Position numbers and translations under genes: made by a program. From a virus: a stretch of DNA of 31,841 nt. This document shows, in pieces, positions 10,236 through 31,841 of this stretch (the stretch's first letter is position 1; every line of letters starts with the position of its first letter). The notes beneath the pieces were generated by a model. It made no database searches and was not told the DNA's origin. It worked only from the letters and a program-made list of their open reading frames with translations. The DNA is taken from the IMG/VR virus record IMGVR_UViG_3300009603_000034, positions 1 to 31,841 of that record. One strand, 5' to 3'.

Positions 10236-10374
10236 TTGTATATTATATATATATATATATATTATATATCTATACGCTATATTACTATACGCTATAGTAC
10301 TATACTATTACTCTATTATTACTATTATTATTACTATTACTATATTATTACGCTATACGCTAAGTATACTATAG
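10236..10374. repeat. AT-rich control element, left copy (inverted relative to right copy)
   Basis: The element begins with an alternating TA run (10244-10262) and then carries TATACGCTATA twice (10271-10281 and 10286-10296). A TAC/TAT/ATT-rich middle follows, then two more TACGCTA heptamers in tandem (10349-10355, 10356-10362), ending in CTATAG (10369-10374). The reverse complement of 18105-18214 shows the same order of parts. The TA-run side faces the leftward late genes. It may be a promoter/operator array or an origin with iteron-like sites. Confidence 0.7.
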
Positions 10375-10392
10375 ATTTCTAGAATTTTCCAG

Positions 10393-10483
10393 AAAAATAT
10401 TAGCAGAAGTGGAAAATAGAGTCTAACATGGAAAAATAAGCAAAATAGAGAAAAGGTTGAAAAACAGCGAAAAATTTCAAAAA
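10393..10483. other. Phased A-tracts, predicted curved DNA
   Basis: Eight runs of 4-5 A residues are centred near 10395, 10414, 10434, 10443, 10452, 10462, 10472 and 10481. Spacings are about one or two helical turns (9-10 or 19-20 bp). Such phasing is known to bend DNA in one direction. It lies between the heptamer element and the plus-strand TATAAT cluster, as in bent regions at promoters or replication origins. Confidence 0.7.
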
Positions 10484-10587
10484 TATAGTTATTATGTGTG
10501 TCTACCTTTTATTATCGTGGATACCCCCATAGTTCCGTTTTGGCGTTTGGTTTTTTAGTTGAATTAATTATTAGGGCGGGAGGGAGG

Positions 10588-10652
10588 TATAATTTATTAT
10601 ATAATTGTCGTATAATATACCTTATGTATAATACAGAATGTCGTATAATATA
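10588..10652 (+). promoter_or_regulatory. TATAAT cluster with twin 14-bp direct repeats
   Basis: Four TATAAT hexamers start at 10588, 10611, 10627 and 10644. Two lie within exact copies of TGTCGTATAATATA (10606-10619 and 10639-10652), 33 bp apart, about three helical turns. This suggests a plus-strand promoter with a repeated recognition or operator site. Clear -35 boxes at normal spacing are lacking, so an activator or a phage-specific factor may be needed. Confidence 0.5.
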
Positions 10653-10712
10653 TATTATGTCTACTTCTACTACTTCTTTTCATAGTTTATAGCAAAAGTA
10701 ATATATACTATT

Positions 10713-10753
10713 GTTTCGGTGTGCTTGGTCTATCTATGACCACACACCAAAAC
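10713..10753 (+). promoter_or_regulatory. Leader hairpin, possible attenuator
   Basis: In the leader of the first plus-strand gene GTTT-GGTGTG-GGTC pairs with GACC-CACACC-AAAC (arms 10713-10730 and 10738-10753, loop TATCTAT, small internal loops). Four T residues follow at 10754-10757. This resembles a weak terminator or attenuator, or a stabilising 5' structure about 85 bases ahead of the ATG at 10840. Confidence 0.5.
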
Positions 10754-10839
10754 TTTTAAACATGTTTAGGAATTCTCATTTATTCTTTATAATTTCTTAT
10801 ATGAAAATAACCCCTAACAAAACGAATATGGAGACAGTT

Positions 10840-11256
10840 ATGGATAAAACCCGGACAGTTCCATTGGTAGAGGTTAAGTACACTAACAAACAAGTAGAGA
10901 TGCTAAAGGCGACATGCTTAGATAATCATGGTAAATTTGACGAGAAAAAATGGCAGACCATGAAAGAAAGCATGGAGTCTACGGGAGCGAAATTTCCTAA
11001 TGGAGTTCGTAACCATATAGCAACCACTGAAGTTATCACCAAGGTTGATACTTCGGTAACTTCAGCATTTCGTAGTAATCTAGAATATATCAGCCCACAA
11101 GGGAGAAAAGGATATACTTTAGATGCTGACGGTAAATTAGTGGAAATGAGTCTATTATGTAGAATAATAGAGCCTAATAAAAACCAATGGAAAGCAGATA
11201 AAGTTAGTGCTATTAAGAATAGCATTAAAGAGACTCTGAAAACTAAAACCAAATAA
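10840..11256 (+). CDS. Hypothetical early protein, single-gene unit
   Basis: This 138-residue protein starts MDKTRTVPLVEVKYTNKQ. ATG 10840 has GGAG six bases upstream, while the in-frame ATGs at 10801 and 10828 lack a ribosome site. No catalytic motif is seen. It has a helical, charged N-half, a middle S/T-rich segment (TEVITKVDTSVTSAFRSNLEYI) and a basic C-terminus (KNSIKETLKTKTK). It lies between a leader hairpin and a strong terminator, so it is probably a short, abundant early transcript of its own. A regulatory or host-takeover role is inference. Confidence 0.72.
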   Translation: MDKTRTVPLVEVKYTNKQVEMLKATCLDNHGKFDEKKWQTMKESMESTGAKFPNGVRNHIATTEVITKVDTSVTSAFRSNLEYISPQGRKGYTLDADGKLVEMSLLCRIIEPNKNQWKADKVSAIKNSIKETLKTKTK

Positions 11257-11270
11257 CAACAGTTAGTATA

Positions 11271-11308
11271 TGAGTGTCGGTATTAATTTATCGGCACTCA
11301 TTTTTTTT
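11271..11308 (+). terminator. Strong intrinsic terminator
   Basis: TGAGTGTCG (11271-11279) pairs with CGGCACTCA (11292-11300), nine pairs with one G-U, over a 12-base loop. Eight T residues (11301-11308) follow at once. It stands 15 bases after the stop of the gene at 10840 and should end that transcript, separating it from the next genes. Confidence 0.88.
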
Positions 11309-11342
11309 GTCATTATTTCAAGACACAGTAAAAAAACATTAA

Positions 11343-11807
11343 ATGATTATATTAAACATCAGCAAACACTCAATAAATATAAAAGCCACACTCCAGAACC
11401 AAGAGACCTATAGCGATATTATACCTCATGGCGGTAAAGATTTATACCATGCGTTAGTGAAAAAGTATAGCGCATTAAGAAAAATTACAACAGAAAAAAT
11501 AGTCATCTCATATAATCCAGGCGATAAAAGAAAAAGCATCACATGTACCATAAATAGTGATGTAAAACCGCCAAGTATAGATAAGTATAAAAATATACCA
11601 AACGCAAGATATATTCCTGATAAACTTGTAACATTGTGCGCTAATAATTGGATTGTAGATAAGAACGGCGACAAGAAATATATAACAGACAGGGTAATGT
11701 ATAAGCGGAAAATAAACCGAGCGGAAACATTATTAGATTTATTTTATACTGGACAAATAGATTTATTAGAATTTAGAACTAAACTAAACAAGGTAATAGA
11801 CGCATGA
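11343..11807 (+). CDS. Hypothetical protein
   Basis: This 154-residue protein of unknown family has a beta-like N-terminal part (MIILNISKHSINIKATLQN), a central K/Y-rich region and a helical C-terminus (AETLLDLFYTGQIDLLEF). The start has no Shine-Dalgarno and lies 35 bases after a terminator, so its mRNA may come from read-through or a promoter in the A-rich gap. Its stop overlaps the next ATG (ATGA). It opens a run of four small unknown genes leading to the AAA+ ATPase. Confidence 0.65.
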   Translation: MIILNISKHSINIKATLQNQETYSDIIPHGGKDLYHALVKKYSALRKITTEKIVISYNPGDKRKSITCTINSDVKPPSIDKYKNIPNARYIPDKLVTLCANNWIVDKNGDKKYITDRVMYKRKINRAETLLDLFYTGQIDLLEFRTKLNKVIDA

Positions 11808-12019
11808 GATATGCACGCTGTCCATATAAGCATAAATATCAATTAGCGGACTGGTTTGCCAAAAGATTTAATGTAAGTAAAAGCGAAGCAAATAAGCATA
11901 GCAAAGAACAACTGTACGCAATCTATTATAGATTAGCGAGTAAGATATGTGGCGTTGTGCTATTTTCTCCTCTATCCCTCCATATACCCACAAACCACAG
12001 TATGACGCCACTAATATAA
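11804..12019 (+). CDS. Hypothetical small protein
   Basis: This 71-residue protein begins MRYARCPYKHKYQLADWFAK with a helical, basic N-terminal 45 residues (KSEANKHSKEQLYAIYYRLAS). The C-terminal 25 residues are unlike the rest and hydrophobic, and may be poorly conserved. An AAGGT lies upstream, and both ends overlap neighbours (ATGA at the start, TAATG at the end), which supports translation. Function unknown. Confidence 0.55.
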   Translation: MRYARCPYKHKYQLADWFAKRFNVSKSEANKHSKEQLYAIYYRLASKICGVVLFSPLSLHIPTNHSMTPLI

Positions 12020-12252
12020 TGCTAAAGAAATACCAGATAGAAGCCAATGAAAAGTTCTTTGACAATGTCATGGAACTGGTAAAGGATGGCGGGATTTACT
12101 GTTGGGTGTCTATTAATAAACAATTTATAAAGCGAGGTGGTAAACTAATCGCTGAAGATAATGATGCTTATGATAAAGTAAGCGAGATTGTATCACCAGA
12201 ATATTTAAAGAAAAAGTTTGTAAACACAAACAAACCAGGAGACACGCTATGA
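12019..12252 (+). CDS. Hypothetical small protein
   Basis: This 77-residue protein starts MLKKYQIEANEKFFDNVMEL and has a beta-like centre (GGIYCWVSINKQFIKRGGKL) before an acidic and then basic end. The ATG at 12019 overlaps the previous stop (TAATG). An alternative ATG at 11947 in the same frame would add 24 residues inside the upstream gene and is less likely. Its stop overlaps the ATG of the next gene. No family recognised. Confidence 0.6.
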   Translation: MLKKYQIEANEKFFDNVMELVKDGGIYCWVSINKQFIKRGGKLIAEDNDAYDKVSEIVSPEYLKKKFVNTNKPGDTL

Positions 12253-12683
12253 ATGAAGTGCAAAACATAAAAGATATGCCTTCAGTAAAAGCGTTTGAAA
12301 TGATAGTTGGTGAAATAGAAGGCGTTACTAAAGACTGGTCAGATATGCACTCTATAATTAACGGCAGTACAAAGCGATGGGAGTACATAATTGAAAATAC
12401 ATCTGAACTGGCTAAAAGACCTTCAGAATTAGATAGTCTAAAGATTTCTATGCGTCAAAGTCATGAACAAGCGCAATCTAAAATGGATAGTTGCATGGAG
12501 AAAGTCGCTTTTATACTACATATAGGCGGAACATGTAAAAGTTTAGAATCAGAACTTAAATCAATGATTATAAATGATATGCAATTAATATCAGGAGATG
12601 TTCAAGACGCTGAAGAAACTCTTATCAGTATAAATGAACTTTCAGAAGATTTATTTAAATTAATATTACAAAAAACAGTATAG
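12249..12683 (+). CDS. Hypothetical helical protein
   Basis: This 144-residue, almost entirely helical protein with heptad-like patterns (RPSELDSLKISMRQSHEQAQ and EETLISINELSEDLFKLIL) is probably a coiled-coil or oligomeric adaptor. A good AGGAG lies seven bases before the ATG. It is the last gene before the MoxR-type ATPase, 73 bases apart. It could act with that ATPase, but only the proximity suggests this. Confidence 0.65.
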   Translation: MNEVQNIKDMPSVKAFEMIVGEIEGVTKDWSDMHSIINGSTKRWEYIIENTSELAKRPSELDSLKISMRQSHEQAQSKMDSCMEKVAFILHIGGTCKSLESELKSMIINDMQLISGDVQDAEETLISINELSEDLFKLILQKTV

Positions 12684-12697
12684 CTTCGCGTTTAGTC

Positions 12698-12711
12698 CCT
12701 TCTCACGAAGG
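12698..12711 (+). promoter_or_regulatory. Short leader hairpin upstream of the ATPase gene
   Basis: CCTTC (12698-12702) pairs with GAAGG (12707-12711) over a four-base loop in the 73-base gap ahead of the AAA+ gene. No T-run follows, so it is not a standard terminator. It could influence mRNA stability or translation. Confidence 0.35.
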
Positions 12712-12756
12712 ATATGAGCGGAGATAACAAGACAATAACTGAAAAAGGAATAGCGT

Positions 12757-14838
12757 ATGTCGGAACAACTATCCGTAGAATCGCTACACAAAGGGTTAAA
12801 TGAAAAAGGATACATCTGCGATGTAGACTTTGCTTCGCGTGTAGCTACCTCTATGATTGCAAAGCCAACTGGCGGTGCATTTCTGTACGGACCTGCAGGT
12901 ACTGGTAAATCTTATCTGCCGCATGTACTATCTGATGTTCTGAATCGTAAGATGTTCTTTCACCAGTGTTCAGCAGGTACTCGCGAAGATGACCTATTGA
13001 TGCGAATCTTTCCTAGCGAAGATACACGAAGTGGAGTAGAAATACTTTACGGCAAGGTGTATCAAGCGGTAATTGCATCTAATACAGAAAAAGTAGTTCT
13101 GGTATTGGATGAATGGGATAAGACAAGACCAAGCGCAGATGGCTACATGTTAGATTTTCTGCAGTATGGTAGACTGTCAATTCCGGGGGAAGAGATAAAA
13201 GCGAACCTTGATAATCTGATGATATTTTTCACTGCTAACGATGAGCGGGATTTTTCAGAGGCACTGCTTCGAAGATTTCCTAAAATTGATATGGAGCCGC
13301 TACATCCAAAACTTGTGAGAAAAGCATTAGAGAACACGCATGATAAACATGCTAACATTCCAAATGCTATCTCTCTTTATCAGCGTTGTTTAATTGCAGA
13401 TATGCCCAAACCAGCTACAATACAAGAGTTACGTCAGTTACTTGACGCTATTGATTTTCTTGGTCAAGGTTCAGACTGGAACGAATTAGTTTACCAGTAT
13501 ATAACCAAGACCGCAGAAAACCATGAATTACTTGCAGACGCTGAAGGTAAAGATATTGAGGATATTTATGCCAGTTCTAATGGTGTAAAGAAACTTAATA
13601 GTTCCGCATATGAAAACTGTAATGAAGTTGATGATGAAAATGATATAGAGCGGTTTATGCCGAAACTATACAAATTTCAGAAATTCAATACAGATATTGA
13701 TGATAGCGGAGAACTACCTGAAGGCGAAAGTATATATGGTGTATTCAAGAAGAGCAATAGGTCTTATGACGCAGTTGTGCAAATGACCAGGGAAATAGCG
13801 GATGACGCAAAATTTCCTAAATGGTCAAGTGTAATTGGCGATACAATCATAATGGATAAACCTATTGATGTACATAATTACGTATCGTTTAATAATCTTG
13901 TAGAGGAAAAGGAAAATAGCGACAGAGACATTGATGGTGAAGTCATGCTAAAATACGAAGAATGTTCGCGTGAAGAGGCTCGCAGACTTGTATTTCGCAA
14001 ATATGAAGTTCATAAATCTTCTAAAGACGAAATTATAGCTCGCAAGTACTTTAATCACCAATCAGACCGTTATGTTGATTTAAGATGGACTCATGAAGAT
14101 GGATTATGCGTTATAGTGCCTGTTGGTTCAAATGGAATACGCAATATTATTCCTTTGTTTAAAATCAATAAGCATTATAATGTTTTAGGGAAAGAGTTTA
14201 ATGGCGTATCACCTGGAATAGTAGATGTAAGTAAAATAACATCATACTTACTCACTACACTCGATAATGGTAATGCTGTTAGCGACCTTGGAACTGCGAT
14301 GATAAAGAGATTGTCTAAACATAACGGATTTTGCGATATGTCTATATGTTCTACGTTTTACAAACATGGGCATGATGGATTTGAAGAAGCGTCAGGTGAT
14401 TTATTGAAGTCTATTAATTTCAATGAATTTGATGGCGGATATGTGATGTCTGGTAGCGGTATAGTTCTTGAAGTTGGTAATGCTGGTTCAGAAACTGGCA
14501 AGGCGTATGCGAAGTTATACGTTGATTCAATGCCAAATATAAAACTATTTTATTACGCTTTAAAAGGATTGGGTAGGATACCATTCTACTCTTGTTTTAA
14601 AGCGGACATAAAAGAAGTTTCTTCAAAACTATCTAATCGCTCATGGAGTTACAGAAAATCAATAATGATATCGCCAGATTCAAGGTTTATGATGATTGAA
14701 TCATTTGGCTACATATGTTTTATCAGAGTATTTAAACATGATAACTATTATAGCGATGATTCAGATGAACTTAAATCAGATGTCAGGAATGCGATTAACG
14801 AACTACGTAAGTTCAGGAGACGCTTTGAGCAAGATTAA
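12757..14838 (+). CDS. MoxR/CobS-like AAA+ ATPase with long unknown C-terminal region
   Basis: This 693-residue protein has an AAA_5/MoxR-type ATPase in its first 250 residues. Walker A is GPAGTGKS (45-52), Walker B is VVLVLDEWDK (113-122), sensor 1 is IFFTAND (156-162), and an E-A-L-L-R-R-F arginine-finger segment lies at 168-174. MoxR-type ATPases are usually 300-400 residues and work as remodelling rings with a VWA partner, as in CobS-CobT or RavA-ViaA. A VWA gene follows here with a 14-base overlap. About 430 C-terminal residues match nothing I recognise. A cobalt chelation role is unlikely. AAGGA precedes the ATG. Confidence 0.88.
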   Translation: MSEQLSVESLHKGLNEKGYICDVDFASRVATSMIAKPTGGAFLYGPAGTGKSYLPHVLSDVLNRKMFFHQCSAGTREDDLLMRIFPSEDTRSGVEILYGKVYQAVIASNTEKVVLVLDEWDKTRPSADGYMLDFLQYGRLSIPGEEIKANLDNLMIFFTANDERDFSEALLRRFPKIDMEPLHPKLVRKALENTHDKHANIPNAISLYQRCLIADMPKPATIQELRQLLDAIDFLGQGSDWNELVYQYITKTAENHELLADAEGKDIEDIYASSNGVKKLNSSAYENCNEVDDENDIERFMPKLYKFQKFNTDIDDSGELPEGESIYGVFKKSNRSYDAVVQMTREIADDAKFPKWSSVIGDTIIMDKPIDVHNYVSFNNLVEEKENSDRDIDGEVMLKYEECSREEARRLVFRKYEVHKSSKDEIIARKYFNHQSDRYVDLRWTHEDGLCVIVPVGSNGIRNIIPLFKINKHYNVLGKEFNGVSPGIVDVSKITSYLLTTLDNGNAVSDLGTAMIKRLSKHNGFCDMSICSTFYKHGHDGFEEASGDLLKSINFNEFDGGYVMSGSGIVLEVGNAGSETGKAYAKLYVDSMPNIKLFYYALKGLGRIPFYSCFKADIKEVSSKLSNRSWSYRKSIMISPDSRFMMIESFGYICFIRVFKHDNYYSDDSDELKSDVRNAINELRKFRRRFEQD
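14815..14819 (+). promoter_or_regulatory. Ribosome binding site that fixes a TTG start
   Basis: AGGAG lies five bases before TTG 14825. The in-frame ATG at 14696 lies deep inside the ATPase gene without such a site, so TTG is the likely start of the VWA protein. Confidence 0.75.
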
Positions 14839-15859
14839 CAGAAATTGGCGTGACTGGGAAAGTAATCACGCCGATAACGCAGTGTCTCCCAGTAAAAGCG
14901 GTACTACTAACAAAAACAGTACCGTTACGAAGCGGAAGTCTTGTACCAGCAGGGCTTCCGCTCATGGAATAAAGTCTAAATTTTCTGCCCGGGCAGGGAA
15001 GAGGGCGTTTAAACAAAATTTATCAAAAAATAATTTATCTAATAAGAAATTTAATAGCGTTCAAAATGAATCTCAGCGCAAAATGAATAGAGATTTAATG
15101 GATAGAAAAAATCACAACATCTCTTGGAGTCAATTAACTAATGGAGAGCGCGTGAAAATTGATGATTATTATGAAAATGGCGAGGTTTACAGTAGTTCTA
15201 ACACCTTATCAGTAGCGATAAAATCAAATAAAGTTAATTTATGGGAAGCTGAATCTATGGGTTTAGCCGCAAGCTATAGTAAATTAAATAGAATGTCATC
15301 AGCGTTTGCTAGAATGATATATAAATTTGGCGAAGATAACTTTGGAAAAGATACAGAAGGCGATGATTTTTGGTGCGAGAGGATGATTGCTGAAAGAGTT
15401 GTATCACGCAAAAATATTAATCACTGTAAAAAGAGCCTTGAAAAAGACAGAATAATTATTATGTTAGATTCGTCGCCAAGTTGCGAAAACCAGGCATCTT
15501 TTTATTCACAGATTGCTAGTATAGCCGCAAGATTTGGGGATATAGAACTATATGACGCACCTAATGGAAGGATAATAAAGGCATATTCTCCGCGTGATAA
15601 AGATTTTTATTACATTTATAATAAGGATGATGTGCTAAATAACGCTCATCGTTGGAGTTATCTGGAAAATCGGAATATAATTATATTTACAGATGGCGAT
15701 TCTACAGAGGTTGTTGAAGAAAACCAGAAAAGAAATAATATCATTCTTTTAACTACCTCTAATACATCTAATTACATGTATAAAAATATGAGAGTAAACT
15801 GGTTTAAGAATATAGATGAACCGGAAGATTTAATAAAAGTCGCTAAAAAACTTAAATAA
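14825..15859 (+). CDS. VWA-domain partner of the AAA+ ATPase (CobT-like)
   Basis: This 344-residue protein (start MSKINRNWRDWESN) has about 100 S/K/N-rich, basic, probably disordered N-terminal residues, a helical middle and a C-terminal VWA-like domain. Its MIDAS motif is I-M-L-D-S-S-P-S (D215-S219, a D-x-S-x-S). The later I-I-I-F-T-D-G-D (286-292) supplies the aspartate of the last MIDAS strand. Between them the usual conserved threonine is not clear, so metal binding may be altered. The gene overlaps the ATPase stop by 14 bases. Paired MoxR-VWA genes form a two-part remodelling machine in bacteria. Its target here is unknown. Confidence 0.8.
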   Translation: MSKINRNWRDWESNHADNAVSPSKSGTTNKNSTVTKRKSCTSRASAHGIKSKFSARAGKRAFKQNLSKNNLSNKKFNSVQNESQRKMNRDLMDRKNHNISWSQLTNGERVKIDDYYENGEVYSSSNTLSVAIKSNKVNLWEAESMGLAASYSKLNRMSSAFARMIYKFGEDNFGKDTEGDDFWCERMIAERVVSRKNINHCKKSLEKDRIIIMLDSSPSCENQASFYSQIASIAARFGDIELYDAPNGRIIKAYSPRDKDFYYIYNKDDVLNNAHRWSYLENRNIIIFTDGDSTEVVEENQKRNNIILLTTSNTSNYMYKNMRVNWFKNIDEPEDLIKVAKKLK

Positions 15860-15888
15860 TAACAAAACAAAACAAAAAGGAGTTTGCT

Positions 15889-16515
15889 ATGCTAGCGACA
15901 CATATCAAAAATGAAGATGATGCCTTCAGTAAAGCTGAAGATACAAACATCTTTGTTAGCGTCAATCCTGATGATGATGACGCTACTCTCGCAGACGAAA
16001 CGTTAAAAATGTCTAGCGCTCTGCAAAAGATTGTTAGAACGTCAGTAGATGACAAAGACGTTGAGTCTTGGCAGGAATTTTTCGTATTAAGCGAAAAAGC
16101 AATAAGAAACAAAGGCGGTAAGATTGGAGATTACTTTGGAATGGCAAGTTATAATCTAGCAGCTTGCGTCACAATGATGAGCGAGTGGCAACGGTTTGCG
16201 TCCAGATTCAAAGAAGACACTGGTTTAATGCCGCCAATAATGGTAATGGCTTTGAAAAAAGGACTTGGCGATGGTGATACAATACAACAAAAATATGGTT
16301 TTCTCTGTCATTATTCATTGCGACGTAATTATGAAGTGGAAGGAATGTTAACATATATTAATAATGAAATATCATATATGATTAGCAGTCTACTGGCATC
16401 TTATGGATGTGAAAAGGTATCTTCGCAAGAGTTCACATCTGAAGTTGAAGATGGTAATGTGTCATTTAAAGATATTGATTTTATTGCTAATAGCGATGAA
16501 AGATACGAAGCTTAA
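15889..16515 (+). CDS. Hypothetical acidic protein beside the AAA+/VWA pair
   Basis: This 208-residue protein follows a clear AAGGAG. The N-terminal 50 residues are acidic and probably flexible (DEDD-type runs). The rest is helical with Gly/Met/Trp-rich parts (KGGKIGDYFGMASYNLAACV, MMSEWQRFASRFKED). No family was recognised. Its place between the VWA and ParB-like genes makes it a candidate substrate, adaptor or regulator of the ATPase. Its stop codon is inside a 9-bp hairpin (16509-16531). Confidence 0.72.
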   Translation: MLATHIKNEDDAFSKAEDTNIFVSVNPDDDDATLADETLKMSSALQKIVRTSVDDKDVESWQEFFVLSEKAIRNKGGKIGDYFGMASYNLAACVTMMSEWQRFASRFKEDTGLMPPIMVMALKKGLGDGDTIQQKYGFLCHYSLRRNYEVEGMLTYINNEISYMISSLLASYGCEKVSSQEFTSEVEDGNVSFKDIDFIANSDERYEA

Positions 16516-16531
16516 TCAAGAGGATTAAGCT
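16509..16531 (+). promoter_or_regulatory. Perfect hairpin over a stop codon
   Basis: AGCTTAATC (16509-16517) and GATTAAGCT (16523-16531) form a perfect 9-bp stem with a five-base loop (AAGAG). It covers the TAA stop of the upstream gene. No T-run follows, so it is more likely an mRNA stability, processing or translation element than a terminator. Confidence 0.6.
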
Positions 16532-16561
16532 AACTTAACAAAAAAGCGAAGAGGAAGTACA

Positions 16562-17356
16562 ATGGCTACTACTAAACGTACCGCCGTTGAACAAACCCTC
16601 GTAGATGGTACTGTATATGAAGTCGGACAAGATGACGACTTTAAAGTAGGCGATGCTATCCACGCTTCTACGGATTACGCGAAATTTACCCTGATAAAGG
16701 GTAATCGCCATGTCCGTATGAATAAAGTGGAGAATCTGGTTAAGTCTATTGAAAAGCAGAACCTTCTGCGGTGCTTTCCTATTGTGGTAACAAGTAATTA
16801 TCACATAATTGATGGACAGCACAGGTTTGTAGCTGCGGCGAAGCTAAAGATACCTGTATGGTATGTGATGGTCAAAGGTAAAATTGACCTGGAAGTAATA
16901 GCGCTTGTAAACAATCAGCAAAATGCATGGAATATGCGGGATTATCTGCATATGTATCAAATGCTTGGGCTGAATCCGTACAAATCGTTTGCTGGTTACA
17001 TTGATAACTTCGGTTTATCAGTAACAACTGGCATACTATTGTGGCTTGGAAAATGTAACGTGAGTGACCAACTTGCGTTCAAATCAGGTGAATTTCCTGG
17101 TACAGGTTACAATAATGCGTACGAAACTGCAAGTGCATTGTCTGATTTGCAAGAATACATACCGCATTGTAAAATGTATAAGTTTTGCCTTGCGTTCGTA
17201 GATATTCTTACGCATCCAGACTATAACCATAAACAGATGCTTAAGAAGTTGAAAATCACTGGCACTTTTCCAAGGTGCGCTCAAGCCTCTGATTATATCA
17301 GAGAACTTGAAAGGGTTTACAACTTTAAGAGCCGCGAGAAAGTGAGGTTCTTCTGA
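16562..17356 (+). CDS. ParB-like domain protein
   Basis: This 264-residue protein has the ParB/sulfiredoxin-like core. The clear hallmark is H-I-I-D-G-Q-H-R-F (81-89) preceded by a helix-strand unit (KVENLVKSIEKQNLLRCFPI), with A-A-K-L-K-I-P-V-W after it. The domain binds nucleotide in several families (ParB CTPase, Srx). The remaining 160 residues carry no clear ParB DNA-binding helix-turn-helix, and no ParA gene is seen, so classical partition is unlikely. AGAGGAAG precedes the ATG. It shares the segment with the AAA+/VWA genes and may be a regulator or nuclease-like factor. Confidence 0.82.
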   Translation: MATTKRTAVEQTLVDGTVYEVGQDDDFKVGDAIHASTDYAKFTLIKGNRHVRMNKVENLVKSIEKQNLLRCFPIVVTSNYHIIDGQHRFVAAAKLKIPVWYVMVKGKIDLEVIALVNNQQNAWNMRDYLHMYQMLGLNPYKSFAGYIDNFGLSVTTGILLWLGKCNVSDQLAFKSGEFPGTGYNNAYETASALSDLQEYIPHCKMYKFCLAFVDILTHPDYNHKQMLKKLKITGTFPRCAQASDYIRELERVYNFKSREKVRFF

Positions 17357-17359
17357 GTT

Positions 17360-18028
17360 ATGGGATTCGACCTGTATGGTATATCGCCATCGGGTGTTGA
17401 CATCCATGAACCCTCAAGTGACGCATCAAAAGAAGAATGGTCTACATATTTTGAGACCGTAAACCGCATAGATGGCGCTTATTTCCGTAGTAATGTATGG
17501 GGATGGCGTCCTCTATGGGGGCTTATTACTGAAATATGTGATGACATTCTTACTGATGATGATGTTGAGCGTGGAACATATAATGATGGTCTAGAAATAT
17601 CATCTAAAAAGTGTGAGTTAATATCTAAACGCTTAAAAGATGCTATTGATGATGGCGGTGTTAGTCATTTCATTGAAGCTTTTAATGATATGAAAAAACA
17701 GGCACCAAAAGAAACATGTTCTATCTGCGAAGGAACTGGTACTCGTAAAGGATGGGAAGGATGGCAGTCTAAAAAGGAATGGTTAAAACACCATGATAGA
17801 CTGGAATATGGCGATGATAAAGATTCCGTTGAATCTTTAGTCAAGTCTATGGATAAAGAAGCGAGCCCACAAGTTGGTTACAAGTGGGCTAAAGAGTGCA
17901 AAGGATGTAACGCTTGTCATGGAGCTGGTAAGGTTAATGCTTTTTTCTGTCATTATGATATTGACGAAAATGAAGTAAAGCGATTCCTTAACTTCTGTGA
18001 GAATAGCGGAGGATTCAACATCTGGTAA
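17360..18028 (+). CDS. Hypothetical protein with DnaJ-type zinc finger
   Basis: This 222-residue protein has an N-terminal M-G-F-D-L-Y-G-I motif and an aromatic stretch (NVWGWRPLWGLITEIC). It then has paired Cys motifs C-S-I-C-E-G-T-G (120-127) and C-K-G-C-N-A-C-H-G-A-G (180-190), as in the CxxCxGxG zinc fingers of DnaJ. No J-domain is present, so it is not DnaJ. Similar phage and bacterial proteins with this layout are uncharacterised as far as I know. It ends the plus-strand segment, right before a large hairpin. Confidence 0.78.
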   Translation: MGFDLYGISPSGVDIHEPSSDASKEEWSTYFETVNRIDGAYFRSNVWGWRPLWGLITEICDDILTDDDVERGTYNDGLEISSKKCELISKRLKDAIDDGGVSHFIEAFNDMKKQAPKETCSICEGTGTRKGWEGWQSKKEWLKHHDRLEYGDDKDSVESLVKSMDKEASPQVGYKWAKECKGCNACHGAGKVNAFFCHYDIDENEVKRFLNFCENSGGFNIW

Positions 18029-18035
18029 TGAATAC

Positions 18036-18127
18036 AATACGTTAAGCTACGTTATAGTTTTTTCCTTTAATTCGCCCCTGTGAGCGCGATAAGGAGTTCC
18101 TTTTCTATAGCGTAGCTTTAGCGTATT
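18036..18127 (+). ncRNA. Candidate structured RNA: long hairpin after the zinc-finger gene
   Basis: Starting eight bases after the stop at 18028, 18036-18057 pairs with 18105-18127. This gives 22 pairs, two of them G-U on the plus strand, with one bulged U. The 47-base loop has a possible inner stem (CCTT 18064-18067 with AAGG 18091-18094, TCGC 18072-18075 with GCGA 18086-18089). G-U pairs on this strand suggest that the folded form is RNA. No T-run follows, so it is not a usual terminator. The 3' arm is also part of the AT-rich repeat element. It could be a processed leader, a regulatory RNA or a DNA cruciform. Confidence 0.55.
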
Positions 18128-18214
18128 AGTTATTATATAGTAATATAATTAGTAATAGTTATTATATAGTATAGTTATAGTAGCGTATAGGTATATTATA
18201 TATATATATAGAAG
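18105..18214. repeat. AT-rich control element, right copy (inverted relative to left copy)
   Basis: TAGCGTA heptamers occur at 18108-18114, 18119-18125 and 18181-18187, with a TA run at 18197-18210 at the right end. Reverse-complemented, its parts follow the same order as 10236-10374: TA run, CTATACGCTA, TAT/ACT-rich middle, two heptamers, CTATAG. The TA-run side faces the replication genes downstream. A promoter, operator or origin role is possible. With the hairpin it fills the 261-base gap between genes at 18029-18289. Confidence 0.7.
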
Positions 18215-18289
18215 TTCAAATGTTTTAAAAAAAACACTATGAAAAAGATTTTAAATAAGGTAATTTCAAATAACGAAATGGAGTTCAAA

Positions 18290-18505
18290 ATGAAACAAAC
18301 AAAAAGAACGGCGATTAAAACATGTTCTTTCAGATGCCCTGAGGATGTTTATAAGCAACTAAAGATTATCTGCGCGTATGAAGATACCAGCGTACAAGAT
18401 AAAGTAACATCACTTGTAGAAAAATGCGTTAAAAATTCTACTGCTTTTAACAAGTTAAATACATCTAATGAAAATACAAGAAATTTACAACAAGTATCTA
18501 ACTGA
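18290..18505 (+). CDS. Ribbon-helix-helix-like small DNA-binding protein
   Basis: This 71-residue protein has the short strand and two helices of a MetJ/Arc-type regulator. T-A-I-K-T-C-S-F-R-C-P-E-D-V-Y-K-Q-L is followed by a helix about residues 28-46 (EDTSVQDKVTSLVEKCV). The ATG at 18290 has GGAG six bases upstream, while the ATG at 18239 in the same frame has none. It is the first gene after the right AT-rich element and could regulate from those repeats, which is inference. Its 3' end overlaps the next gene by 38 bases. Confidence 0.72.
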   Translation: MKQTKRTAIKTCSFRCPEDVYKQLKIICAYEDTSVQDKVTSLVEKCVKNSTAFNKLNTSNENTRNLQQVSN

Positions 18506-20425: not shown

Positions 20426-20622
20426 TTAGTTGTGATGATTTTTCAAACGCATACATATTATTATCTCATCTGACAGATTATGGAAAACTCACTAGAACTC
20501 AAGCTAATATTCTTTACAATGAATATTTTGTTGACGCTCAAATTGGATTTTTAAAGTCTTTTGGACACAATATAAAACGTAGAAAAATAAAAGGTGAACA
20601 TGAATGGTATTTAGCGAAATAA
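20422..20622 (+). CDS. Hypothetical small basic protein
   Basis: This 66-residue ORF begins with TTG at 20422 overlapping the previous stop, with AAGGTG upstream. It has a helical centre (TRTQANILYNEYFVDAQIGF) and a basic end (HNIKRRKIKGEHEWYLAK). The gap-free, overlapping position before the helicase suggests it is real. It might be a loader or regulator of the helicase, but nothing in the sequence proves it. Confidence 0.6.
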   Translation: MISCDDFSNAYILLSHLTDYGKLTRTQANILYNEYFVDAQIGFLKSFGHNIKRRKIKGEHEWYLAK

Positions 20623-21971
20623 ATACAAGGCAGATATCGGCACACGCTCCCGAAGCCGAGAAAACATTATTAGGTCAAATCCTAATAGATAATAGCGTGA
20701 TAGATAAAGTCGGAGAATATATTCCAGAGGAAGAAGTTTTTTACGATTCAAAGCATCAGAGAGTATGGAATACAATACAGTCTATGCGTAAAAACGGAGA
20801 TGAGGTAATAGATGTTGTAACTGTGATGTCTAGAATAAAAATCGTAGGTGATGATGATGTATCAGCTTACTATCTTACCGGCTTAATAGAAAATGTTGCT
20901 TCCATATCAAATGCTGAGCATTACGCCAAGATAGTTTATGAAAAATGGTTACTAAGGAAAGTAATTAGAAAAGCTGAGATTATTAAAAATACAATAGATA
21001 TGCCTATTGATGAAGCATACAATGCTTTACAGGCTATTAATAGCGAAATAGAAGATGTGCTGAATATGAGGGTTCGTGAAAAATTCGACCTTGGCAACTT
21101 GGTAGATGAAACGGCTGAACATATTAAAGCTCATGATAGTCTCATACCATTTGGGTACGGAAAACTAGATAAGATGACAGGCGGAATGACAAGAGGTGAA
21201 ATAACAGTAATAGCAGGTCGCCCAGGTCACTTCAAGTCAACTATGATGTTAAACATTGTTAGAAAACTTATACGCTCAGGAAATAAAGTTATTGTTTTTA
21301 ATAGAGAGATGAGTAATGTTGAAATGATGAAAAAGCTTTTTGTTCTTGAGTCTCAAGTGTTGAATTATGATAGTCTCCGCTCTGAAAATATGGCAGATTT
21401 TGAAGTAAGCGACCTTGAATTAGCTAAAAAACATATTAAAAATAAATATCAAAATTTACTGATGTTTGATAATATATTTGATATAGAGCAAGCTATGCGA
21501 GAAATTAGAAAACACAAGCCTGATGTTGTAGTGGATGACTACATAGGTCTTATTGACGTTTTTGGTATTGATGATAATAGACTTCGTGTAGACTCTATTA
21601 TGAAGCAATATAAGCGTGCCGCTAAAACATACAACATGTGCTGTCTACTTGTTTCTCAACTTAATCGAGAATGTGAATCAAGGGCTAATAAACGCCCTAT
21701 ATTACGAGACTTACGGGATTCAGGTTCAATAGAACAAGACGCTGAAATGATACTTTTTATGTACTACGATTGGAGATATAATTACATGGATAGTCAAGGC
21801 GGGGAAAATGAACTTGAAGTAATTTTAGGTAAAAACAGATACGGAAGAACTGGTAGCGTTGGATTGGGAGTTATAGGAGATAGGTGTTCTATTTTTAACG
21901 ATGTCGATGAATCAGTAAACGATTCTTACAGACTAATAAAAGAAAGAGGAAAGCATGTCGGTTCATTATAA
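20604..21971 (+). CDS. DnaB-type replicative helicase
   Basis: This 455-residue protein has a DnaB N-terminal domain (P-E-A-E-K-T-L-L-G-Q-I-L-I at residues 16-28) and a RecA-like motor. Walker A is AGRPGHFKST (204-213), with G-H-F-K rather than the common S-M-G-K. Walker B is V-V-V-D-D-Y-I-G-L-I, then L-L-V-S-Q-L-N-R-E and R-D-L-R-D-S-G-S-I-E-Q-D-A-E, both classic DnaB motifs. It unwinds DNA at the phage fork. No primase or polymerase gene is visible in this window, so host enzymes or genes elsewhere are used. AAGGTG lies seven bases before the ATG. Confidence 0.93.
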   Translation: MVFSEINTRQISAHAPEAEKTLLGQILIDNSVIDKVGEYIPEEEVFYDSKHQRVWNTIQSMRKNGDEVIDVVTVMSRIKIVGDDDVSAYYLTGLIENVASISNAEHYAKIVYEKWLLRKVIRKAEIIKNTIDMPIDEAYNALQAINSEIEDVLNMRVREKFDLGNLVDETAEHIKAHDSLIPFGYGKLDKMTGGMTRGEITVIAGRPGHFKSTMMLNIVRKLIRSGNKVIVFNREMSNVEMMKKLFVLESQVLNYDSLRSENMADFEVSDLELAKKHIKNKYQNLLMFDNIFDIEQAMREIRKHKPDVVVDDYIGLIDVFGIDDNRLRVDSIMKQYKRAAKTYNMCCLLVSQLNRECESRANKRPILRDLRDSGSIEQDAEMILFMYYDWRYNYMDSQGGENELEVILGKNRYGRTGSVGLGVIGDRCSIFNDVDESVNDSYRLIKERGKHVGSL

Positions 21972-26571: not shown

Positions 26572-29500
26572 TTATTTCCCGTAGTAATTACTTCTATACT
26601 GTCTTACAGCTCTCCAGAAATCTCTCTTCTTCTGTTTATAGAGATTATCCAATTCAATTTCTTCAAAAGCGTCATCACGTTCTAATTTAGAAACATATAT
26701 ATTATATTTTGATGCCTTAGCTCCGCGCTCACGTTTACGCCAACTACCTGGTATAGGTCTTTGTCTGCTGATGATAGACTTTAAAATACTTTTTGCTTTT
26801 TTCTCCGCTCTACGCCTACTTAACCCAGTAGCAACACCTTCTTTTTCAATCTGGTCTGTTAAATATCCCAATGCAGAGTAATAAGCTCTAGCTTTATCTT
26901 CTTCGTCATTATACCAAAATAAACTCCTAATGTGTCTATAAAAAGGAGTGCGAGTAGTCAAAGCATCATCTGAATCAAGAGGAGGATTCCAATCTTTAAA
27001 GTAAGCATCTAAAAACTGACGCTGCCTTCTGCGCGAATCTGTATATCTTTTCCGCGTATCCTTTGTTAAATTATCTGCTATTCTCATAGAAAAGCCAACA
27101 GCAGCTATAGTCCTTTTACTAAGGTCTCCTATAGCTTCAGGGGCACGTTTTTTACCTTCAGCTATATTCATAGCTTCTTTATATACATCAACAAAATTTC
27201 TCATAACTACCGGAGCATACACGTCAATAACTCCTTCTCCGTATTCATCAAAAGCATTGCTTAATAGACCTAGACCCTCTGCTCTGATTAAATTAGACCA
27301 GTAACCAGCTGGAGCGTCTTTGAATCTGTTCTTCCTCTCCTCATCAAATAAATAATAATATGTAGAATATAAAGCAGAACCAGCTCCCATAGAAAGTCCT
27401 ACATATTTCATCATTGGAAATAAATTTCCATCACGTATAGCAGGTGTCATAACATTGTTAACAATATTATTCGTCATCCTATATCCAATGCGATAGAACA
27501 AAGTTAGAGGTCTAGCAAAGTCTTTTCCCATCCAATACGGAACATATGGATAATCTCCAACACCTTGAGTAATAGTATGAGACAAATCAGAAGCTTTTTC
27601 TAAAGCTTTTTTATCGTATCCTCTTCCGCCCAATCTTCTACGCTCCACCATGTTAGCAACTTCTTTAGGGTCAAATTTAAATATATCCATTAAAACATGT
27701 CGCGAAGTAGTTCTCCTCGGGGCAATAAGTGATTTTTTACCAAGACCTGCTAAGTTATCTAAATGCAGTTCTAACATTCTGTGACCCATAGTAGAGCTAA
27801 TAATCCTATTAATCATCTCTGTTTGTTGCATCATACCAGGAAATCTCACTGTTTTTAATACTTTGTCCCAGTAACCGCTAGCCCTATTACTAGATAAATA
27901 CAAATCATAGACACCAGTATACTTAGCCCCTATGCTCTCTGCGAAAGATTTTGAGCCCATCCAGCCGCCTGTCATTAAATCCCAATATGATTTTAATAAA
28001 GACCTAATTTGAAAATGTGTAGCGTTTTGCACTTGTCCCAATAAGATATTTTTAAAACCACTTAGTGGAGCTGACAATCCGATAGATGCACTAGTTCTTG
28101 TTAATTGGCTTACAGCGCTAGATATCATTTTAGCTACAGGTCCACGCTCTGAAACATCTTGCCCCATTACCATAGCGTCTAAAGCTTTTTTAGCATAGTT
28201 TCTATAAAAATCTCCAACGTCTCCGCCACCTGCTTCCTTACGTAGTTTATCCAACTGGACATTAACTTCTCCCTTATTCAATCCCTCGATACCGCCAAAA
28301 GCATCATAAGCAGATGTAGAACGAGCTGTACGTTCTGAATATTTACGCATAATCTCTGGGAAATCAAAATCATATACTTGAAGAACCTTATCAATCTTTT
28401 TACCTTCTAGAGTATCACCAACTTTGAATACCTCGCCTGCCTCATTGGTGGTTCTATTGGTTTTAATTCTAATTAAATTAGAATTTTCAGCTTTTGAGAA
28501 AAACATATGGGTAGGTAAATCTGCTACTCTCGTCCACATTTGTCCAAAAACCTTATTGCGCTTAAACATTCCATCAAAATTTCTAATTTCTTTCATAGCT
28601 AATTCTTTAGCTTCATCAAGAGTAATTTTCCTCGTTCTCAATTTGACTTCAATCTCTGGAGTGGACGAAATAAAATCCAACAGAACAGCATCTTTTAATT
28701 CTGAATTTCTATATATAGTTTTAAAGAAATTATCTGTAATCATTCTTGGGAAATAATTATTATTATATGCATTATCTACAACTTTATTTATAGTATATTC
28801 TACTAGACGTTCACCTTTTAGCTTGGGTATGTACTCTCTAGTATATATTACATTTCCCATTTTTAATTTACCTTGAGCTATGTCTAATATTTGCTGTTCA
28901 GCGCTTAATGTTCTTTCTTCTCTTGAACTTCTAATTTCCTCTTCTATCCCACTTCTTGGTTTTCTAGATGAAATTTTATTAATTGGTATATAGTCAGTTC
29001 CTTTTTTAACTATTATATTTTTAGAACCTTCATCAAGAATACGTTTTGAATTATATAGCACTCTAAGTACAGGCTTTTGTTTATTAGTCCTACTATCTTT
29101 GATTAAATACCCTGATTTAGATTGGGCAACAAACATAGAATCAAAGTAATTACGCATAATATTAGCGGCATATTCCACATTGTTAATGGATGTTTTTGAA
29201 CCGTCAGGTAATTCAACTATAGTATTTTTTTCAGAGTTTTTATCATACCACCTCTGATAATCCTTTCCTTTTCTAAGGGCAATATACTTATCGTCCATAT
29301 GTATAGCTAAATTATGCCAGTCTCTACTTCCAATAAGTTTTTTAACTTCTTTCTCAATTGCTTGAGTAGCTCCCATCATTTTTCTATATACACGTGAACT
29401 CCTCAGCATTTTATTAGAAATCCACTTACCTGCAGGTCCCATCCATTCGATTACAGTATGAATAGGAAATAGACCTGTGTTTTTTGTTAAAATTTTTCTA

Positions 29501-31841
29501 GCTGTAGGGCTAATACCTTCGCTAAGAACTGACGGTGGAGGAGTGACGCCAACATCTTCCGGTAACATATCAAATTTTCTTTTTACTTCAAACCTAGACC
29601 TTAATTCTTTTAACTCAGGCAAGTTTAACAGTTTAATTTCCCCAACTTGATTTTCTGGAAAATATAATTTAACCATTTCTTTTTGTATTTGAACATTCCC
29701 ACTTGTACTTCTCATAATATTCTGAATATCTTTTAGTTCAGTTTGCCACTCTTGGTACTTAGGGCTACCAGAAAACTGATTAACAGCTTCGATTTGAGAT
29801 GTTTCAGCTTCTCTAATAGATTTCTGACCATGCACGCCTCTCCAATTAGCATTAGCCCAAGCCTCTGCTTCTGCGCGAGTCGCAAAACCTTTAGCCGCTT
29901 CAGCGTCTACAGTATGGATATCCTTAAATGGAACCCACTTAGAACCATGCTGTTTTTTATAGTGTAAAGAAACCTCGAACGGTCTATCAGCTTTAACCCC
30001 TAAATCGCTATATCTTTGTATTGCTAATTTATTATAAGGAGCATCTAATGGTAAATCCTCTATAGAAACATCTGCTTTAGGTCTTAGTTTTTGAACGCTA
30101 GGAGCTATACCTGCACTAGCAGGCCCACCTCTCCTTCCTGCTGGCGACCATTTTGAAGGTGTAAAACCTGGTATAATATGAGATACCCTTAAGTCAACGC
30201 CAGGTCTGTTCAGCGTAACATATTCCACTCTCTCAGGTCCCTTTACGTTAGTAACTTCAAAGACATCAGCGTTTTTTAGCTTGGTTGTAGCACCTGTCTT
30301 AATATCTTTAGGGCTTAGCCTTTCACTTTTAATGACATCATCATACTTACCAATAAATTTACCTATACCTGCTTCGACTGTACTAAACTTACCATTACCT
30401 TCATATAAAGGAATACGAACAAAATCTCCTTCTTTATATTTCGGTCTCCCAACTTTTACAGGTTCCGAAAGCCTTGCAGGCGCAGAAGTCTGAATTTCAG
30501 TTTCTATAGATTTATTTTTTCGACTTAACATTTCTATTCTAGAATTTAATTCATCTTTCTTCCATTCAGCTAATTCTTTACCAACTCTAGAACGATTTCT
30601 TTTCAATCGTTTTTTAATATTATTAATTTCTGAATTATTTCTTTTTATTTGACTGCGTAATTCATTTTCTATAGTAAGATATTCTGGTCCTTTAACATTG
30701 TAGTCGGCTCTCTCTGTAACTGTAGCTTTACGCTCTACACCTTCTTTAGACGCTCTCTGTAAAGCAGATGCATACTTTTGATGTACTTTTTGAATTTCAA
30801 GTTCACCCTTAGTTGGACCGCCTGGTAATTGTTCTCTACTTTGAACTTCGGATTTTGCTTCTTTAATGCTAATAAATCTATTATTAAATCTTCTAAGAAC
30901 TTCTACAACAGACTTACCTTCTATTCTTTCATCTCTCCATTTTTTCTCAACAAAACCATCTTTAGAAGGCTCTGCATAAAATCTTTCATATATTAAATAT
31001 GGTTTTTTATTTTTCGGTCTAACAATCATTTCATTCGGGTCAAACCGAATAAGATAATCGCCAAGTTCTTTCTTCTGTTTTCTAGGTCTTCCAACGCCCT
31101 TCTGGAAATAATCCTTAGATACAAACAAATTTTTATCATTTTCTACCAAGCTTTTAGCAGAATCTACTATCCTATCGCCTGTAACAGTCTCGAATGTAAG
31201 TCTTATAGCCTGCTCTTCAGTGTATCCTTGCCTTCTAAGCTCTTCTATCATTTGGCGTTTACTACCTTCCCTACTTAACCCCCGCATTACTCCATGCATA
31301 GTAGATAAGACTAACCCATGAGCCAATCTTTCATGAAAAGGAATGTCAGTAGTACCGCCATCACCCCAAGCGCCAAGACCGAATAAACCCGCTGACTCAG
31401 CAGCTATCATACCTGCTTTCTTTAATCCTGTAGTATTAGACCATAAGATAGTTGACGGAGCTCCAAACGCTGTAAAAGCACCAGTTGTAAGCGTATCAAC
31501 GCCTAATTGTTTGAATCTATCTTCCAATGGAGAATTTGGTTTCATATGTAACTGCCCATAAGCCGCAAATGGAACAAAATTTCTTTGAGCCACATCAAAA
31601 GCTTTAGCCATTTTTACATAACCAGGTCCTTTAGCAGCTATGCTTTGCAATCCTTTTATATACGCTTTACTACCACCAATAAATCCAGTTGCTCCGCGTA
31701 TCATAAACATTCGATTAGTTGGGTCTGTTGCTATTTTCTTAGCTTCTTTTACCCATTGTGACTTACTTATTTTAGAAGCTTTAGCTAAATTTCTATAGAG
31801 TTTAGATGTTTTTTCTATATTAGTAAGCGGTATAGATGCAC
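26572..31841 (-). CDS. Very large virion-associated (polyvalent-type) protein, N-terminus beyond right edge
   Basis: The frame has no stop between the ATG at 31710 and the right edge, so 43 extra codons are readable and the protein exceeds 1755 residues; the true start is outside. The sequence is mixed: Gly/Ala-rich and aromatic N-part, a long charged coiled coil with NNIKKRLKRNR, and a middle domain (IEWMGPAGKWISNKMLRSSR). Near the end is a stretch (THTITQGV-like, RPLTLFYRIGYRMTNNIVNN) that resembles domains of large polyvalent phage proteins, then a hydrophobic segment and a basic end. Such giant proteins are often ejected with DNA. An RNA polymerase signature was not seen. Confidence 0.72.
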   Translation of the reverse strand, partial: ASIPLTNIEKTSKLYRNLAKASKISKSQWVKEAKKIATDPTNRMFMIRGATGFIGGSKAYIKGLQSIAAKGPGYVKMAKAFDVAQRNFVPFAAYGQLHMKPNSPLEDRFKQLGVDTLTTGAFTAFGAPSTILWSNTTGLKKAGMIAAESAGLFGLGAWGDGGTTDIPFHERLAHGLVLSTMHGVMRGLSREGSKRQMIEELRRQGYTEEQAIRLTFETVTGDRIVDSAKSLVENDKNLFVSKDYFQKGVGRPRKQKKELGDYLIRFDPNEMIVRPKNKKPYLIYERFYAEPSKDGFVEKKWRDERIEGKSVVEVLRRFNNRFISIKEAKSEVQSREQLPGGPTKGELEIQKVHQKYASALQRASKEGVERKATVTERADYNVKGPEYLTIENELRSQIKRNNSEINNIKKRLKRNRSRVGKELAEWKKDELNSRIEMLSRKNKSIETEIQTSAPARLSEPVKVGRPKYKEGDFVRIPLYEGNGKFSTVEAGIGKFIGKYDDVIKSERLSPKDIKTGATTKLKNADVFEVTNVKGPERVEYVTLNRPGVDLRVSHIIPGFTPSKWSPAGRRGGPASAGIAPSVQKLRPKADVSIEDLPLDAPYNKLAIQRYSDLGVKADRPFEVSLHYKKQHGSKWVPFKDIHTVDAEAAKGFATRAEAEAWANANWRGVHGQKSIREAETSQIEAVNQFSGSPKYQEWQTELKDIQNIMRSTSGNVQIQKEMVKLYFPENQVGEIKLLNLPELKELRSRFEVKRKFDMLPEDVGVTPPPSVLSEGISPTARKILTKNTGLFPIHTVIEWMGPAGKWISNKMLRSSRVYRKMMGATQAIEKEVKKLIGSRDWHNLAIHMDDKYIALRKGKDYQRWYDKNSEKNTIVELPDGSKTSINNVEYAANIMRNYFDSMFVAQSKSGYLIKDSRTNKQKPVLRVLYNSKRILDEGSKNIIVKKGTDYIPINKISSRKPRSGIEEEIRSSREERTLSAEQQILDIAQGKLKMGNVIYTREYIPKLKGERLVEYTINKVVDNAYNNNYFPRMITDNFFKTIYRNSELKDAVLLDFISSTPEIEVKLRTRKITLDEAKELAMKEIRNFDGMFKRNKVFGQMWTRVADLPTHMFFSKAENSNLIRIKTNRTTNEAGEVFKVGDTLEGKKIDKVLQVYDFDFPEIMRKYSERTARSTSAYDAFGGIEGLNKGEVNVQLDKLRKEAGGGDVGDFYRNYAKKALDAMVMGQDVSERGPVAKMISSAVSQLTRTSASIGLSAPLSGFKNILLGQVQNATHFQIRSLLKSYWDLMTGGWMGSKSFAESIGAKYTGVYDLYLSSNRASGYWDKVLKTVRFPGMMQQTEMINRIISSTMGHRMLELHLDNLAGLGKKSLIAPRRTTSRHVLMDIFKFDPKEVANMVERRRLGGRGYDKKALEKASDLSHTITQGVGDYPYVPYWMGKDFARPLTLFYRIGYRMTNNIVNNVMTPAIRDGNLFPMMKYVGLSMGAGSALYSTYYYLFDEERKNRFKDAPAGYWSNLIRAEGLGLLSNAFDEYGEGVIDVYAPVVMRNFVDVYKEAMNIAEGKKRAPEAIGDLSKRTIAAVGFSMRIADNLTKDTRKRYTDSRRRQRQFLDAYFKDWNPPLDSDDALTTRTPFYRHIRSLFWYNDEEDKARAYYSALGYLTDQIEKEGVATGLSRRRAEKKAKSILKSIISRQRPIPGSWRKRERGAKASKYNIYVSKLERDDAFEEIELDNLYKQKKRDFWRAVRQYRSNYYGK

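Follow-up and report, generated by a model that had tools for sequence, protein, structure and literature searches.

What are the two AT-rich elements that face each other across ≈8 kb of an uncultivated phage genome, and what reads them? The window, as we call the whole stretch of DNA analyzed here, is a 31,841-bp virus record from IMG/VR. The initial annotation described the two elements, here termed E1 and E2, as inverted and diverged versions of one plan bracketing a segment with AAA+, VWA, and ParB genes, and it offered three readings: a matched promoter/operator pair, two origins, or a movable or invertible block with the elements at its ends. Genes to the left of ≈10.2 kb (terminase, portal, and major head protein) run leftward, and those from 10.8 to 25 kb run rightward, encoding an AAA+ protein, a VWA-like partner, a ParB-N-like protein, a ribbon-helix-helix (RHH) protein, a PD-(D/E)XK nuclease, a recombination-associated protein, a DnaB helicase, and a methylase, with the methylase and VWA names coming from reading the sequences. 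E1 lies where leftward and rightward genes diverge, and E2 lies farther right among the rightward genes, immediately ahead of the RHH gene. The features are as follows.

10236-10374, + strand: element E1, comprising a TA-run, TACGCTA repeats, a G-free ACT tract, further TACGCTA repeats, and a CTATAG end
10250-10269, + strand: TA-run of E1, a candidate DNA unwinding element
10273-10294, + strand: TACGCTA pair of E1 (10273-10279 and 10288-10294)
10349-10362, + strand: contiguous TACGCTA pair of E1 (10349-10355 and 10356-10362)
10490-10511, + strand: early-promoter-like block (TATTATGTGTG...CCTTTTA) to the right of E1, conserved and outside the shared element
16562-17356, + strand: ParB-N-domain-like gene upstream of E2, undetected in many E2-bearing lineages
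18105-18214, - strand: element E2, with the plan of E1, inverted
18108-18125, - strand: TACGCTA pair of E2 (18108-18114 and 18119-18125)
18181-18187, - strand: TACGCTA repeat of E2 adjoining its TA-run
18192-18210, - strand: TA-run of E2, towards the RHH gene
18239-18505, + strand: RHH (Arc/CopG/ParG-like) gene, encoding a candidate binder; an internal ATG at 18290 is the better family start
20604-21971, + strand: DnaB-like replicative helicase gene downstream of E2 (phrog_19, E 1e-83)

That E1 and E2 form an inverted, diverged pair was borne out by local alignment against a shuffled control. The Smith-Waterman score of E1 with the reverse complement of E2 is 95, far above dinucleotide shuffles (mean 56.9, sd 7.1, maximum 88; 0 of 2000), and the score in direct orientation is 40. 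With the TA-runs removed, the pair still scores 67 versus 41.8 (sd 6.4) for shuffles, a level attained by 3 of 2000. A repeat search delimits two pairs of inverted arms, one of 30 nt at 93% identity (10250-10279/18181-18210) and one of 54 nt at 76% (10298-10351/18129-18182), and the orientation-informative 8-mers shared by the two elements are all inverted (11 inverted, 0 direct). The proposed common order of parts holds as a similar layout but not as an identical one, since E1 carries four TACGCTA heptamers (10273, 10288, 10349, and 10356, the last two abutting) and E2 three (18181, 18119, and 18108). TACGCTA occurs 12 times in the window versus 3.6 expected, a count reached in 0 of 100 shuffles; seven copies fall inside E1 and E2, and the other five are scattered singles (12751, 19370, 20014, 22998, and 23532), in agreement with the earlier remark that the heptamer also appears elsewhere. 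Among the 100-bp stretches of the 31,841-bp window, E1 ranks first and E2 second for lowest duplex stability.

The bracketed region has no nucleotide match among 50,697 phage records, the AAA+ protein has none among named phages, the terminase is only ≈24-27% identical to those of named phages, and a search of bacterial genomes with the terminase found no relative. Literature searches found no account of this phage clade. Searching IMG/VR with four proteins (AAA+, phosphoesterase, nuclease, and ParB-like) recovered >100 contigs. The pair recurs in an uncultivated phage clade of about 20 lineages, with AAA+ identity down to ≈33%. Members of the close group do not differ in gene order; an element sits at the E1 place throughout and, with one exception among the lineages read, at the E2 place as well. 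In that exception (L138), which is the single instance of the initial annotation's refuting case of a relative lacking one element, the place before the RHH gene is empty, yet the contig has a second AT-rich element with motifs at another place, beyond the methylase. In distant contigs that have only the phosphoesterase in common (L078-L100), the genes are ordered differently and the element is absent. When 100-bp stretches are ranked by duplex stability, E1 and E2 take the two lowest places in 15 of 19 loci, and they do so across the whole of the 49.7-kb G001 and 48.4-kb G005 contigs. The repeat array adjoins an AT-rich, low-stability tract, a feature of the origin type.

Several other features of these genomes recur. 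An AAA_5 (dynein-related, MoxR/CobS-like) ATPase with an adjacent VWA-like protein (window 12757-15859) is present in 20 of 20 lineages. A gene of similar size always comes first after E1 (g1, window 10801-11256) and evolves extremely fast, the g1 proteins of relatives being 8-54% identical to that of the window. Between E1 and this gene, ≈270 bp right of E1, lies a near-palindrome, CGTATAATATATATTATG (10642-10659), a possible operator that is exactly conserved as a single copy in each of the 40 loci fetched, many of them overlapping. At the other end of the window, 26572-31710 is a single leftward gene of 1712 aa, with ORFs of 1208 aa (L037) and 2095 aa (L118 contig) at the matching place. 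Scanning the window for Rfam families and tRNAs gave no matches.

An inverted pair flanking ≈8 kb invites the idea of a block that inverts or moves, with E1 and E2 as its ends, but the bracketed genes have one orientation relative to the terminase in every locus spanning both elements, and hence there is no sign of inversion. What moves instead is a neighbor: the counterpart of gene 17360-18028, which carries CxxC motifs and an MGFDLYG start, comes after E2 rather than before it in L037 and L038 (9097-9558 in L037) and is absent from L005, so that E2 keeps its place while the gene beside it changes. Moreover, no recombinase was recognized within the bracket, and some lineages carry three copies of the element. 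These observations contradict a movable block, which we consider close to negligible as an explanation.

Comparison of the lineages reveals that each has its own repeat. The motif is (T)ACGCTA in the window and L111, TACGCAT in L112, L115, and L116, GCCTAGGC in L125, L126, and L137, an AAGCTT tandem in L118, GCCATAGC in L130, AGCTATA in L122, L129, and L140, ACGTA in L147-L155, and ACTACATAC in L141. In each case, the motif is common to the E1 and E2 of the lineage and differs between lineages. When windows were set by a mechanical rule, each being the 170 bp of lowest stability within a fixed search region, E1 and E2 share on average 4.39 8-mers within a phage versus 1.06 between lineage groups (0 of 100,000 permutations, 10 groups), where the permutation count serves as a guide rather than an exact probability because the ten groups are not fully independent. 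The mechanical placement repeated a test with hand-placed windows, which gave 6.29 versus 1.17 (9 groups, 1 of 50,000) and in which some E2 windows had been set by eye after inspection of the sequence. Across all lineages, orientation-informative 8-mers are 74 inverted versus 27 direct; several lineages have near-palindromic motifs, from which orientation cannot be read.

Could this matching arise with no common binder, from AT-rich intergenic DNA that drifts by slippage while recombination between the inverted copies (gene conversion) keeps E1 and E2 alike? Simple repeats slip easily, and a slight excess within lineages is seen in a mechanically placed control region too (1.52 shared 8-mers within versus 0.78 between). 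The excess at the elements is, however, ≈4-fold versus 2-fold in the control, and both position and extreme instability are kept across the clade. Furthermore, the number, order, and spacing of the motifs differ between the E1 and E2 of one phage, so no block appears to have been copied, and a shared reader fits these differing layouts better than block copying does. We therefore regard drift with conversion as improbable.

Stability minima and motif clusters in longer contigs disclosed additional copies. L118 (contig G009, 32829-32887) and L137 (contig G011, 19233-19330) each have a third copy with the same motif as their E1 and E2, and the 47-kb L118 contig has 10 AAGCTTAAGC sites, every one of them inside its three copies. 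L150 and L155 have an additional element among the late genes. Whereas E1 and E2 lie upstream of genes, the third copies of L118 and L137 lie at a convergent junction, between the ends of rightward and leftward genes, where a promoter operator is not expected.

This placement bears on the proposal of a matched promoter pair, which we judge unlikely. The outward flanks of E1 and E2 are dissimilar, and the early-promoter-like block stands beside E1 only, not E2. It reads TAC(A/T)ATGTGTG...GTCTTTTA, has a poor -35, and is followed by a C-rich leader, with conservation extending to ≈10575; one such block occurs beside E1 in most loci, at the same place in most relatives. Its TCTTTTA part resembles a boxA-like antitermination site. 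Scans for sigma-70 promoters and terminators around E1 and E2 gave hits no commoner than in shuffles.

Because each lineage uses its own repeat at all of its patches, one phage protein probably reads all copies of the repeat of its lineage. As to what that reading achieves, the elements have the anatomy of an iteron origin, with repeats beside the easiest-melting DNA at two or three mostly intergenic places in genomes that encode recombination and helicase proteins; downstream of E2 are the PD-(D/E)XK exonuclease, the recombination-associated protein, and a phage-encoded, DnaB-like replicative helicase (phrog_19, E 1e-83). Judging from sequence, their most likely role is in starting or controlling DNA replication, and with confidence that is evenly balanced, we propose that E1 and E2 may be two copies of one replication-origin-type cis-acting element combining iterons and an unwinding element. 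Replication initiation as the outcome is inferred and is less certain than the common binding protein. Among the readings offered initially, a pair of origins appears to fit best in anatomy, conserved position, and motif covariation, with RHH operators as a possible rival. In such an origin, an AT-rich unwinding element (the TA-run and its very unstable flank) would lie beside iterons bound by a single phage-encoded protein, whose binding would melt the TA-rich DNA and permit loading of the phage DnaB-type helicase, by analogy with lambda ori and SPP1 oriL/oriR. Two or three copies per genome could then provide several start sites, or a start site and a fork-stalling site as proposed for SPP1.

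Other origin signals and candidate binders were also considered. GC skew switches at E1, but the switch coincides with the divergence of transcription and thus gives no independent support. The ACT tract shows TAG/TAA triplets on its complement, but interpreting these as a DnaA-trio was abandoned, since neither triplets nor strand asymmetry persist in other lineages such as the CT-rich L029 and the palindromic L129. The host DnaA-like box (TTTTTCACA) that adjoins E1 in relatives was not seen at that place in the window. A fold search with g1, the universal first early gene, as a potential initiator returned no convincing match. The ParB-like protein was rejected as a universal binder since its gene is undetected in 14 of 20 element-bearing lineages.

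The RHH protein is one candidate binder, and it also underlies the main rival to the origin reading. According to this rival, the small RHH protein, whose gene immediately follows E2, uses both elements as operator arrays. In the manner of ParG or omega, it would coat the AT-rich repeats, repress or time its own operon at E2, and control the divergent early and late promoters around E1. In 17-18 of 20 lineages, E2 is followed directly by the RHH gene, an arrangement that counts against the origin reading insofar as an operator would also explain it. The closest solved relative of the protein is ParG (1p94; profile match, E 8e-6), and its predicted model has the RHH fold, with two helices after the strand region and a core pLDDT of 95-98; the Foldseek matches listed are mostly RHH proteins (Arc, AmrZ, and CopG), with individually weak E-values. 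Moreover, lineages with similar motifs tend to be alike in the predicted DNA-reading strand (partial r 0.35 after accounting for PDDEXK identity; 20 of 5000 permutations). This link is unspecific, however, as AAA+ identity predicts motif sharing equally (partial r 0.43), so the grouping reflects phylogeny as much as recognition.

The protein and the element can also be separated. In L122 (49.7 kb) and L130 (50.7 kb), contigs that may be incomplete, E1 and E2 are kept and share motifs but no RHH gene was detected, which favors origins; L138 has the RHH gene with no element adjoining it. Separation in these three lineages makes the operator reading less likely, and the copy at the convergent junction in L118 and L137 also argues against it. 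We consider the operator reading possible but doubtful, and with the strand-motif correlation matched by AAA+ identity and the RHH gene separable from E2, we regard the RHH protein as a candidate rather than an established binder.

A ParG-like RHH protein together with multiple repeat arrays likewise raises the idea of a partition or DNA-positioning system, in which the elements would serve as centromere-like sites and the RHH protein would be a ParG/omega-like adaptor. However, a PF13614 search of 15 contigs, which may be incomplete, found no ParA-type ATPase over the cut-off (the seven weak hits were to the DnaB gene, and the control was positive in 14 of 14), so a partition system is unsupported. 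The ParB-N-like gene is, in addition, undetected in many lineages. Partition is thus a very improbable explanation.

Returning to the origin reading, we tentatively suggest that these phages use a private origin code, in which the iterons have been replaced repeatedly and in concert at all copies and are read by a fast-evolving phage protein. That reader is possibly the ParG-like RHH protein acting as an origin binder, a role that would be unusual for the fold. Pairs of iterons and unwinding elements are of a known kind; what is new is that, across a clade, the repeat has changed in concert at two to three conserved places. Concerted sequence change at several sites points to one reader protein and provides a natural series of matched protein/DNA pairs. 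If the elements are origins, the clade offers about ten natural repeat sets for studying how initiator and iteron change together, and it lets one ask which of two or three origins fires when. If they are instead RHH operators, they represent a regulon with a fixed layout and a DNA code that has been replaced many times. We also suggest the combination of least stable segments and a private shared repeat as a marker for origin-type elements in uncultivated phages.

Among known systems, ParG of plasmid TP228 belongs to the same RHH family by profile, and it binds arrays of degenerate short boxes separated by AT-rich DNA at parH and represses at the operator upstream of parFG (PMC7308502). The clade differs in that no ParF/ParA partner was found, the boxes are others, and array and RHH gene are separable. 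Omega, the ParB of pSM19035, is likewise an RHH-fold protein that binds nonpalindromic 7-bp repeats at several promoters, its own among them (PMC9499535), but its arrays have 7-10 consecutive heptads, whereas those of the window have three or four mostly spaced heptamers and no Delta (ParA). The lambdoid ori, with iterons beside an AT-rich tract in the early region (PMC7466680), is comparable in anatomy, although it is a single origin inside gene O with longer iterons bound by O-protein. In Bacillus phage SPP1, oriL lies inside the initiator gene, whereas copies in this clade are nearly all intergenic and their origin function is putative. SPP1 nonetheless has two origins kilobases apart, each with repeats and an AT-rich unwinding element bound by one protein, gp38; a proposed role of the second origin is to stall forks and set off concatemer synthesis, and the SPP1 replication set, like that of this clade, includes recombination genes and a DnaB-type helicase (PMC6316719).
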